A stretch of 64,000 nt of DNA, from assembly GCF_003368325.1 (NCBI RefSeq), contig NZ_CP031467.1, positions 1,240,001 to 1,304,000 on the forward strand, in the 5' to 3' direction. The notes below the pieces were generated by a model. The model was given only the letters and a program-made list of their open reading frames with translations. It was not told the DNA's origin and made no database searches. Both the position numbers and the translations under genes were made by a program. Numbering within the stretch: position 1 is the stretch's first letter; each line of letters opens with the position of its first letter. The stretch comes from Paraburkholderia caffeinilytica (lineage in GTDB: Bacteria > Pseudomonadota > Gammaproteobacteria > Burkholderiales > Burkholderiaceae). Positions 12,711 through 51,794 of this stretch are shown here, piece after piece.

Positions 12711-12713
12711 GCG

Positions 12714-12738
12714 AAAAACCAGCGTCAACAGGCGCTGG
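12714..12738 (-). terminator. Intrinsic terminator of the candidate RNA
   Basis: On the minus strand CCAGCG and CGCTGG pair around an 8-base loop and are followed by TTTTT (12718-12714). It sits about 200 bases upstream of the lytic transglycosylase start codon, so it ends a separate RNA or attenuates that gene. Confidence 0.55.
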
Positions 12739-12851
12739 CGAGGACTTCAGTAAGACCGCCAAATACCGTGCAGGGGGTCGGTAAGCGGTGACGCGTTGCG
12801 TCTGAAGGGACCGGGGCGGCGGTAAAAAGGTTCACGCCCTGCAACCAATGT
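12714..12851 (-). ncRNA. Candidate small RNA or terminated leader
   Basis: A promoter on the minus strand (TTGACG at 12886-12881, 17 bases, TAGAAT at 12863-12858) would start RNA near 12851. About 115 bases later an intrinsic terminator (stem 12738-12733 with 12724-12719, then TTTTT) would stop it, giving roughly 138 nt. Inside, GCAGGG can pair with CCCTGC over 60 bases and CTTCAG with CTGAAG, suggesting a closed multi-branched fold. There is no ORF with an ATG. It could be an sRNA or the attenuated leader of the lytic transglycosylase. No Rfam family was recognised. Confidence 0.45.
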
Positions 12852-12857
12852 GGACGG

Positions 12858-12886
12858 ATTCTATGCAGGGTTTTATAGATCGTCAA
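12858..12886 (-). promoter_or_regulatory. Sigma-70-type promoter for the candidate RNA
   Basis: The minus strand reads TTGACG, 17 bases, TAGAAT, differing at one position from each consensus hexamer (TTGACA, TATAAT). It is the best promoter in the 605-base gap between the lytic transglycosylase and ubiD. It points toward the lytic transglycosylase. Confidence 0.6.
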
Positions 12887-13117
12887 CACTATAGATAGGC
12901 AAAAGTATAACTAATTGTAATAATGAACAGTGTTCAGTCCGTCAAGAACCGCGCGGTGCGCGCTTCTTGAGCTATCTCGATTAGTCCCTCCGAAGCCGGC
13001 CATTTGGCCAATCTACGTGCACCTGCCAACACAGGTAAAATCGACAATCGTTCTGGCACCGCAAAACCCTGCGGCGCCCTACCTTTTTGCCGCTTGCGCG
13101 GCGCTCTACCGCACCAG

Positions 13118-49863: not shown

Positions 49864-49893
49864 TTTACACCAGCGCTTTTCTTGTCGTATTCT
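49864..49893 (+). promoter_or_regulatory. Promoter upstream of argD
   Basis: TTTACA (49864-49869), 18 bases, TATTCT (49888-49893). RNA would start at about 49900, almost exactly at the ATG of the proposed leader peptide (49901), so that peptide would be translated from a leaderless 5' end. Confidence 0.55.
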
Positions 49894-49900
49894 TTCGCGC

Positions 49901-49951
49901 ATGAACCGCATCCAGTCCGAACTTCGACGTCGCCGCTCGCCGCTCCCTTAG
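49901..49951 (+). CDS. Predicted arginine-rich leader peptide of argD
   Basis: A 16-codon frame encoding [16 protein letters not shown], starting ATG at 49901 and ending TAG at 49949-49951. It holds one arginine at codon 3 and four consecutive arginine codons at 9-12 (CGA CGT CGC CGC). It lies just downstream of a promoter and 62 bases before an intrinsic terminator that precedes argD. Clustered codons for the regulated amino acid are the hallmark of attenuator leader peptides. No Shine-Dalgarno is seen, so translation would be leaderless. Expression is not demonstrated. Confidence 0.45.
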
Positions 49952-50012
49952 GGGCGCCGCTGGCTTCGTCACGGATTCGCGCCGCACAAGGGCGCAAGCA
50001 GTTCGAATCATG

Positions 50013-50039
50013 AAAGCCACGGCATGCCGTGGCTTTTTT
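50013..50039 (+). terminator. Intrinsic terminator in the argD leader
   Basis: AAAGCCACGG (50013-50022) and CCGTGGCTTT (50027-50036) form a perfect 10-bp stem with loop CATG, followed by continued T's. It lies 87 bases upstream of the argD start, so it terminates a leader or separate RNA rather than argD itself. Confidence 0.85.
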
Positions 50040-50126
50040 ATTTGCTTTTTTGTTTTCCCCCGGCCGATGTTTGTGTCGGGCCAATCGCTCACTCACCCTT
50101 CACCCCGCTGTCTGGAGCCTGCCGTT

Positions 50127-51311
50127 ATGAATTTCAATGAGTACCCGATCGAGTCGCTGATGTACATCACGAACCGGCCCGAAATCGTTTTCACGCACGG
50201 CAAGGGCTCGTGGCTCTACGACAATAACGGCAAGCGATATCTGGACTTCATCCAGGGCTGGGCGGTCAACAGCCTCGGCCATTGCAACGACGGCATGATC
50301 GAAGCGCTGAACACGCAATCGAAGCTGCTGTTGAATCCGTCGCCGGCCTTCTACAACGAGCCGATGGCGAAGCTCGCCGGTCTGCTCACGCAGCACAGCT
50401 GTTTCGACAAGGTGTTCTTCGCGAACAGCGGCGCCGAAGCGAACGAAGGCGCCATCAAGCTCGCGCGCAAGTGGGGCAAGAAGTTCAAGGACGGCGCGTT
50501 CGAAATCATCACGTTCGATCACAGCTTTCACGGCCGTACGCTCGCCACCATGTCAGCAAGCGGCAAACCGGGCTGGGACACGATCTACGCTCCGCAAGTG
50601 CCGGGTTTCCCGAAGGCGGATCTGAACGACATCGCATCGGTCGAAAAGCTGGTCAACGCGAAGACCGTCGCGGTGATGCTCGAGCCGATTCAGGGCGAAG
50701 GCGGCGTGATTCCCGCCACGCGCGAGTTCATGCAGCAACTGCGCGAACTGACGAAGAAGCACAACCTGCTGCTGATCGTCGACGAAGTGCAAAGCGGCTG
50801 CGGCCGTGCCGGCACCTTGTTCGCGTATGAACTGTCGGGCATCGAACCGGACATCATGACGCTCGGCAAGGGCATCGGCGGCGGCGTGCCGCTCGCGGCG
50901 CTGCTCGCGAAGGCCGACATCGCCGTGTTCGAAGCGGGCGATCAGGGCGGTACGTACAACGGCAATCCGCTGATGACCGCGGTCGGCTACTCGGTGATCT
51001 CGCAACTGACCGCGCCAGGTTTCCTCAAAGGCGTGCGTGCGCGCGGCGAATATCTGCGCGCCAAATTGCTCGAACTGTCGGAAGAGCGCGGCTTCGAAGG
51101 CGAACGCGGTGAAGGTCTGCTGCGCGCCCTGTTGCTCGGCAAGGACATCGGCAACCAGATCGTCGAGAAGGCTCGCGTGATGCAACCCGACGGTCTGCTG
51201 CTGAACGCAGCACGTCCGAACCTGCTGCGCTTCATGCCGGCACTGAACGTCACGAACGAAGAAATCGACCAGATGATGGCGATGCTGCGTTCGATTCTCG
51301 ACACGCTGTAA
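50127..51311 (+). CDS. argD: Acetylornithine aminotransferase-family protein
   Basis: ArgD converts N-acetylglutamate semialdehyde to N-acetylornithine with glutamate as amino donor, in arginine synthesis. The 394-residue fold-type I PLP enzyme has the class III signature [21 protein letters not shown] (Asp before the PLP) and [15 protein letters not shown] with the Schiff-base lysine. The N-terminus ([22 protein letters not shown]) is typical of ArgD; N-succinyldiaminopimelate aminotransferase activity is a common side role. The ATG at 50127 has GGAG upstream; the longer frame runs through the leader terminator. The GNAT gene follows after 18 bases. Confidence 0.88.
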
Positions 51312-51329: not shown

Positions 51330-51794
51330 ATGACGACCGAGCCGTTATCGATCCGCCGCTTCGAAGCGAGCGACACCGATGCCGTGGTCGCGCTATGGCA
51401 GGAAGCGTTCCCGGAGTATCGGGACGTGACGAGACCGCAACGCAACCCGCATCTGTCGATCGCCAACAAGCTGGCGACGCAACCGGAACTGTTTTTTGTC
51501 GCGGTGTTCGGCGAACGTATCGTCGGCACGGTGATGGGGGGTTACGACGGGCACCGAGGCTGGTTGTATTCGCTCGCGGTGGATGAATCGCTGCGTCGTC
51601 ACGGTATCGGCACGCGTCTGGTCGCGCACGTCGAAAGCGCGTTGACCGAACGCGGCTGCCCGAAGCTGAATTTGCAAGTGCTGTCCGCGAAGGCCGACGT
51701 GCGCGCGTTCTATGAGGCGCTCGGTTATCGCGCGGATGCTGTGATCAGTCTCGGCAAGCGCCTCGGCGAACTGGCGGACACTCCGGCCGCTTAG
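51330..51794 (+). CDS. GNAT-family acetyltransferase (YpeA-like)
   Basis: A 154-residue GNAT protein. The acetyl-CoA motif is RRHGIGTRLVAHVE (about residues 88-101) and the C-terminal LNLQVLSAKADVRAFYEALGYRA matches the YpeA-like subgroup. Small acetyltransferases of this kind modify amines of small molecules or protein N-termini; the substrate is unknown. It starts 18 bases after argD and ends in a terminator (51820), so the two are an operon. Confidence 0.85.
   Translation: MTTEPLSIRRFEASDTDAVVALWQEAFPEYRDVTRPQRNPHLSIANKLATQPELFFVAVFGERIVGTVMGGYDGHRGWLYSLAVDESLRRHGIGTRLVAHVESALTERGCPKLNLQVLSAKADVRAFYEALGYRADAVISLGKRLGELADTPAA

Follow-up and report, generated by a model that had tools for sequence, protein, structure and literature searches.

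The question raised by this locus is whether the short RNA encoded directly upstream of argD in Paraburkholderia caffeinilytica, which belongs to a family filed among the small RNAs, is instead the leader of a transcription attenuator that senses arginine. The window is the whole stretch of DNA that was analysed, 64,000 nucleotides of contig NZ_CP031467.1 (positions 1,240,001 to 1,304,000), and argD belongs to the arginine pathway. A preliminary description of the window had proposed that a promoter is followed by an ATG frame with four arginine codons, then by a segment able to pair, a terminator and finally argD, and each of these was found in its place and in that order:

49864..49893, plus strand: sigma-70-type promoter TTTACA-18-TATTCT, with TTTACA at 49864-49869 and TATTCT at 49888-49893
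49901..49951, plus strand: leader peptide frame, ATG at 49901 and stop TAG at 49949-49951, kept in relatives through length changes of 3n
49925..49936, plus strand: four consecutive Arg codons CGA CGT CGC CGC, the proposed sensing codons, also part of segment 1
Segment 1, plus strand: 5' strand of a competing hairpin in the predicted folds, including the Arg codons at 49925..49936
49956..49966, plus strand: segment 2, GCCGCTGGCTT, predicted to have two alternative partners, the segment 1 region and the 5' arm of the terminator (antiterminator)
49979..49995, plus strand: spacer hairpin GCGCC...GGCGC, which separates segment 2 from the terminator and varies in both length and sequence
50012..50039, plus strand: intrinsic terminator hairpin and T-tract, with the 5' arm at 50012-50022, a loop and the 3' arm at 50027-50037
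50127..51311, plus strand: argD, acetylornithine transaminase (NF002985), the proposed regulated gene

The promoter has an 18-nt spacer and 9/12 consensus matches, the leader frame comprises 16 codons, and segment 2 begins four bases past its TAG. The identity of the argD product comes from NF002985 at 806 bits (cut-off 568). As a test for chance occurrences, every ATG in the 64 kb window was checked on either strand, and 49901 alone had a TAnnnT just upstream together with RRRR within 17 codons. The RNA from 49901 to 50039 has a predicted fold of -59.4 kcal/mol (z = -3.05), a value equalled by none of 200 shuffles. Downstream, a frame at 51330-51794 (plus strand) begins 18 bases after argD and may be co-transcribed with it; we take its product to resemble a GNAT acetyltransferase.

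The case for a small RNA comes from Rfam and from published transcripts. Window positions 49887-50039 (plus strand) match family RF02884, BcKCsr7, from end to end at 143.4 bits, where the gathering score is 59, and this family is described as 'Burkholderia sRNA 7' with the Rfam type 'Gene; sRNA'. The Rfam search of the leader also returned a sub-threshold match to Phe_leader, and the window contains a full-length match to another Burkholderia sRNA, RF02422 Bp1_738, at 12712-12920 (plus strand, 209.8 bits). The homologue in B. cenocepacia J2315 is RIT34, also named nc5U30, Bc_KC_sr7 and IG1_2967543, with coordinates that span 147 nt (PMC10987360). As the table in the available part of that source reads, this RNA goes down in nematode infection and up with organic peroxide, and none of the listed responses is arginine-related (PMC10987360). 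RF02884, BcKCsr7, nc5U30 and RIT34 are the same RNA as the window leader; it is filed as an sRNA, and the available parts of the published accounts examined name neither a leader peptide nor attenuation of argD. In addition, 82 short 5'UTRs arising from processing or attenuation were described in B. cenocepacia (PMC5688073, available part), a set to which nc5U30 would belong judging by its name. On this evidence the RNA could be a stand-alone trans-acting sRNA in which the arginine frame is incidental, a reading favoured by the Rfam type and by the naming of the short transcript in several B. cenocepacia studies (PMC10987360).

The genomic setting argues against that reading. Matches to RF02884 occur in 183 of 299 genomes of the window's family, 134 of them above the gathering score, and in nine of its 25 genera, with a single copy in the window's own genome; the search across the order gave 12/300, four over the cut-off. 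One locus per genome was fetched from 133 of the 183 matching genomes, and argD lies downstream in 130 of these 133 loci; where the leader could be parsed, in 126, its ATG and argD are 167-267 nt apart. The other three are two terminator-only hits (L050 and L059) and a decayed copy adjoining an inserted stretch (L060), none with an intact leader, and five weak extra matches (L154-L158) lack both argD and the leader motif. Three genomes of genus g10 (3.5-4.2 Mb) carry decayed leaders: L060 has a premature stop beside the inserted stretch, L126 has lost the start codon and the frame, and L044 has foreign DNA upstream. As a measure of distribution the RF02884 model proved insufficient, since genera g5, g7 and g18 of the window's family, all with leaders, escape it; leaders with an Arg run in genomes that it misses include MNSALLSLRRRG..., MNTAIIRRRARTLL..., MHCTAATAGSRRRRLC and MNTLTIRRRRST... 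In a plasmid collection, none of the matches listed, 10 out of 17 records and 15 out of 286, covered the leader part.

At the level of sequence, the decisive evidence for the reality of the leader is its conservation in relatives. A parser that required a -10-like box, an ATG and CGACG read 126 of the 130 argD-linked loci; because CGACG was imposed, those five bases are uninformative on conservation. Four loci were left unparsed: the start codon of L037 contains two N, L044 has its upstream portion replaced by foreign DNA, L125 lacks CGACG although by eye it keeps the frame and three Arg codons, and L126 has lost its ATG and has a broken frame. Among the parsed leaders the distance from ATG to CGACG falls into five length classes (24 nt in 102, 21 in 11, 27 in 8, 18 in 4 and 33 in 1), and it is divisible by three in 126/126. 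The preliminary description had proposed conservation of the arginine codons across argD upstream regions as a check, and this bore the proposal out: the four-codon run holds four Arg in 116 of the 126 leaders, three in 6 and two in 4. The run is interrupted in the g3 leaders L041, L045, L049 and L053, which read RRSFR or RRSVR. Independent changes at the seven run positions outside the motif, counted on an argD tree of the 102 leaders of one length class, numbered 12 at third, three at first and one at second codon positions.

A frame-blind pattern scan of named genomes, which matched at least 120 stretches and in which 80 loci were counted among the matches listed, found the run in frame at 41/41 argD-linked and 7/39 unlinked loci among those matches. 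The linked loci include Burkholderia, Paraburkholderia, Trinickia and Pandoraea, and the leader peptide of P. xenovorans LB400 is identical to that of the window. Leader peptides range from 15 to 32 residues, their sequence outside the Arg run varies widely and the position of the stop is not conserved; this variability in sequence and length suits a leader peptide more than a small protein with a function of its own. A stop just before segment 2, part of the original proposal, holds in Paraburkholderia-type leaders including that of the window, but in Burkholderia, Trinickia and Pandoraea leaders the frame continues across the segment.

Because frame and Arg codons persist and 130/133 loci have argD next to the match, the sRNA-only explanation was rejected as the main reading. 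Length changes that preserve a frame and codon changes biased to third positions stand against it as well, and we consider a stand-alone sRNA very improbable. The preliminary description had itself allowed for an sRNA. The terminated transcript is already catalogued as one, which does not contradict an attenuator; the conserved frame and Arg codons oppose the idea that it is nothing else. The trp/his-type attenuator logic that had been put forward for arginine and argD gains computational support from the conserved Arg codons, the frame, the terminator and the adjacency of argD.

How would a ribosome enter this leader? The end of the -10-like TAnnnT, a box that the parser required, stands 7 nt before the ATG in 90 of the 126 leaders, 6 nt in 25, 8 nt in 10 and 4 nt in one. 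Because the box sits 4-8 nt before the ATG, transcription is expected at or next to the start codon, and in the window it probably starts at or next to 49901, yielding a leaderless leader. The missing Shine-Dalgarno sequence had been counted as a weak point of the proposal; it need not be one, since transcript and frame probably share their start, which would explain it. The lengths of the leaders of genus g12, taken as Burkholderia since named Burkholderia loci share its peptide, can be set beside the published RNA. Counted from the A of the ATG up to the last base ahead of the T-tract, its 30 distinct leaders measure 140-152 nt, with 147 the commonest value (10/30), and up to the end of the T-run they measure 147-158 nt. 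The 147-nt mode agrees with the RIT34 span, which is suggestive and not proof.

The other half of an attenuator is the alternative folding of its RNA. An intrinsic terminator between the leader frame and argD was found by pattern in 125 of 126 leaders. The quantity computed was the probability that the upstream RNA sequesters the 5' arm of the terminator just after its synthesis, in 118 distinct leaders (L120, missed by the terminator pattern, was excluded, and 7 of the remaining 125 were duplicates). Without a ribosome the mean predicted sequestration of the arm is 0.34, and it exceeds 0.5 in 35/118. With Arg codon 1, 2 or 4 in the A-site the mean rises to 0.73, 0.86 and 0.87, with values above 0.5 in 111, 118 and 118 of the 118 leaders, respectively. 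A ribosome at the stop codon gives a mean of 0.42, or 0.28 with a footprint 3 nt longer. The window leader gives 0.97 throughout the Arg run; a ribosome at its stop codon gives 0.56 if the shorter footprint is used and 0.01 with the longer one. High sequestration is also obtained at codons neighbouring the Arg run, and because of this the fold alone does not single out arginine; in the model, it is the codons that do so.

The antiterminator is thus predicted to be favoured by stalling in 118/118 leaders, but at the stop codon it is not lost in 4/118. In these g3 leaders (L041, L045, L049 and L053) the stop-codon value of 0.85-0.86 lies above the stalled value of 0.61-0.78, and in L053 the naked value is also above the stalled one; as modelled, the four contradict a simple switch. 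The frames of L003 (Burkholderia-type) and L040 (Pandoraea-type) cross segment 2 and have their stop at codon 28 or 29; predicted sequestration disappears once the ribosome is seven to nine codons beyond the first Arg codon. Sequestering partly returns (0.5-0.6) in L003 and L047 at codons beyond the Arg run. When the spacer was shuffled, the mean was 0.57 versus 0.86, with 8.1% of shuffles reaching the observed value, and 118/118 leaders exceed their own shuffle mean, these being related and not independent sequences. The shuffle controls are therefore only moderately beaten by the predicted folds.

The folds bear on a further explanation, namely a constitutive terminator accompanied by a small functional peptide, or a riboswitch-like direct binding of arginine without any ribosome. 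The strong structure of the leader (z = -3.05) and the 35 of 118 leaders whose naked RNA favours sequestration of the arm would suit this explanation, but no conserved aptamer-like core was seen: the RNA is variable outside the start codon, the Arg run, segment 2 and the terminator. Moreover, Arg-run frames before argD recur in ten families including the window's. We therefore regard this explanation as very improbable and return to the ribosome-mediated attenuator.

Base-pair covariation in both alternative stems had been named as a mark of such an attenuator, and here the outcome is divided. In a 30-row alignment tested with 500 shuffles, the terminator is conserved and its stem is nearly invariant, with one pair changing from A-U to G-C. 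For the terminator and the competing hairpin, 88.1% of cells are paired versus 86.3% in shuffles (0/500) and 15 cells carry a double change versus a shuffle mean of 4.0 (0/500), while three pairs have a double change versus 1.5 (42/500); the count of further pair types, 8 versus 8.9, does not beat the shuffles (467/500). The antiterminator helix and the spacer hairpin together are 73.8% paired versus 72.9% in shuffles (23/500) and at most 37.9% in slid versions. No pair of the antiterminator helix changed on both sides in this alignment. Since the terminator arm is almost invariant, the antiterminator is supported by complementarity and not by covariation; its pairs may be understated, with seven rows of the most divergent genera (L038, L040, L058, L041, L049, L042 and L047) lying by eye about one column off at the helix. 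Covariation was thus tried as decisive proof and set aside for that role, the double changes being found in the terminator and the competing hairpin and not in the antiterminator helix.

We consider it very probable, and by far the best reading, that argD is controlled here by a ribosome-mediated transcription attenuator responsive to charged arginine tRNA, probably through a leaderless leader. Conservation, frame, linkage and alternative folds were computed; for the start site, the translation of the leader, the stalling and the response to arginine, we infer the following course. RNA polymerase would start at or next to the leader ATG, and a ribosome would load on the leaderless 5' end. With ample arginine, the ribosome would clear the Arg run and cover segment 2, or depart so that segment 1 pairs with segment 2. 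The masking of segment 2 would occur from the stop codon in the window, and by translation across it in Burkholderia, Trinickia and Pandoraea. With segment 2 occupied, the terminator would form and the short RNA known as BcKCsr7, nc5U30 or RIT34 would be released. If arginine is short, the ribosome would instead stall on the Arg codons and hide segment 1, leaving segment 2 to pair with the 5' arm of the terminator and allowing read-through into argD.

The released RNA, or the peptide, might also act in trans, which would be an addition to the attenuator and not a replacement for it. A discrete expressed RNA in B. cenocepacia (PMC10987360) and the precedent of rnTrpL/peTrpL of Sinorhizobium meliloti (PMC7298713) speak for such a dual role, but the peptide outside the Arg run is variable (15 to 32 residues), against a conserved peptide function. 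We judge a second function of this sort to be rather unlikely.

Attenuation by a leader peptide is itself a familiar mechanism. Rfam leaders exist for Leu, Trp, Thr and His, and none is known for Arg. In the mycobacterial polycysteine leaderless short ORFs, a single-amino-acid run in a leaderless frame reportedly acts as an attenuator; these differ from the argD leader in their amino acid, cysteine, and in their host. With the trp/his-type attenuators of proteobacteria, as set out in the available part of one source, the locus shares an amino-acid run in a leader peptide, competing hairpins, an intrinsic terminator and a biosynthetic gene downstream (PMC7298713). It differs in that the argD leader would sense arginine and has its start codon at or next to the probable transcription start. 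The trpL/rnTrpL system of S. meliloti has an RNA that begins with the leader ATG, as is probable here, and a terminated product that is an sRNA, but it responds to tryptophan, belongs to an alphaproteobacterium, and has an RNA and a peptide with reported trans functions (PMC7298713). Salmonella orf34-speF senses arginine through consecutive Arg codons of an upstream frame; these are two in number, the target is ornithine decarboxylase, and control is exerted through Rho, RNase G and the ribosome-binding site instead of by an intrinsic-terminator switch acting on arginine synthesis (PMC6386406, available part). Similarly, a short upstream frame in Staphylococcus aureus, rbfL, senses arginine via Arg codons, but there ribosome occlusion controls the translation of a biofilm regulator (PMC13009471, available part).

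Among openly licensed PMC papers, we found no arginine attenuator of argD and no arginine-response experiment on the leader. The available text of a survey of premature terminators does not mention argD in its main part (PMC2965389), nor does that of a study of structured RNAs in 26 genomes (PMC8632094). For Actinobacteria, the available part of one account reports that conserved RNA structures were not seen upstream of arginine operons and notes arginine T-boxes elsewhere (PMC1262725). The kind of mechanism is known, and its arginine specificity for argD appears to be undescribed. If the attenuator is real, it gives a function to the Rfam 'sRNA' family RF02884 and extends leader-peptide transcription attenuation of biosynthetic genes to arginine as a sensed amino acid.

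How far does the arrangement extend beyond the window's family? In a sample of 399 genomes from across the order, argD orthologues (E at most 1e-100) were detected in 63. The regions upstream of 77 argD loci, 24 from the window's family (several from genomes already counted) and 53 from other families, were scanned for an ATG with a -10-like box and an Arg-rich short frame, followed by a terminator. The strict scan detected a leader at 24/77 loci, against 0/77 on the reverse strand and 1/1540 in shuffles, and the relaxed scan at 27/77, against 0/77 and 2/1155. Outside the window's family the relaxed scan was positive at 18/53 loci in nine families: f3 (4/4), f8 (5/6), f24 (3/4), f15, f20 and f35 (1/1 each), f39 (1/3, a weak case), f21 (1/8) and f5 (1/7). 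The same scan gave no leader in f4 (11 loci), f30 (4), f11 (2) and f19 (1); by eye, leaders are present in one f11 locus (L327, MHSLFLRRRRIPQHG...) and in another f24 locus (L324). Within the window's family it detected a leader at 9/24 argD loci, and genus g13 is an example of those in which the upstream scan detected none. The window's own genus includes two small genomes (4.1 Mb; L135 and L136) that have argD without a detected leader.

For the 27 leaders of the relaxed scan, predicted arm sequestration is 0.49 for naked RNA, 0.81 when stalled and 0.41 after the stop. Shuffles average 0.60, 22% of them reach the observed value and 3/27 leaders score lower than the mean of their own shuffles. 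Stalling fails to raise predicted sequestration above that of the naked RNA in 6 of the 27, and in 3 it gives less than the state after the stop. The same arrangement with diverged sequence in several families would make this a good system for leaderless translation coupled to termination.

The regulator searched for in these bacteria was ArgR (PF01316), which was detected in 0/150 genomes of the window's family and in 0/51 other genomes of the order with this argD; the search was positive in 9/14 control genomes. An RNA sensor would fill this gap, and, if real, the attenuator helps explain how arginine synthesis is tuned in bacteria without detected ArgR. A broader proposal is that of an ancestral, order-wide betaproteobacterial arginine sensor, in which leaderless Arg-run leaders replace the missing ArgR, first at argD (ten families including the window's by the relaxed scan) and, in some lineages, at further arginine genes as well. 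We offer this tentatively and lean somewhat against it.

In the window's own genome, Arg-rich frames lie upstream of argF and carA, and the 450 bases before the argG match contain no Arg-rich short frame. The argF case (L343, G000:C2, upstream of 1365533) is a TTG-initiated frame, LSYHKRRRRRPAILPGETAVFVS, that begins shortly after TATGCT and holds five consecutive Arg codons; its stop overlaps the probable argF start (ATGA), and it is possibly an analogue that works by translational coupling. Before carA (L346), an ATG frame, MDSSRPLRRHRQYASESARASCRCVSLRLAVG, begins 157 bases upstream of where the carA match starts, and no T-rich terminator was seen after it. Finally, two genomes of genus g98 (G511 and G651) have two argD matches each, one of which, in G511, has an internal TGA.
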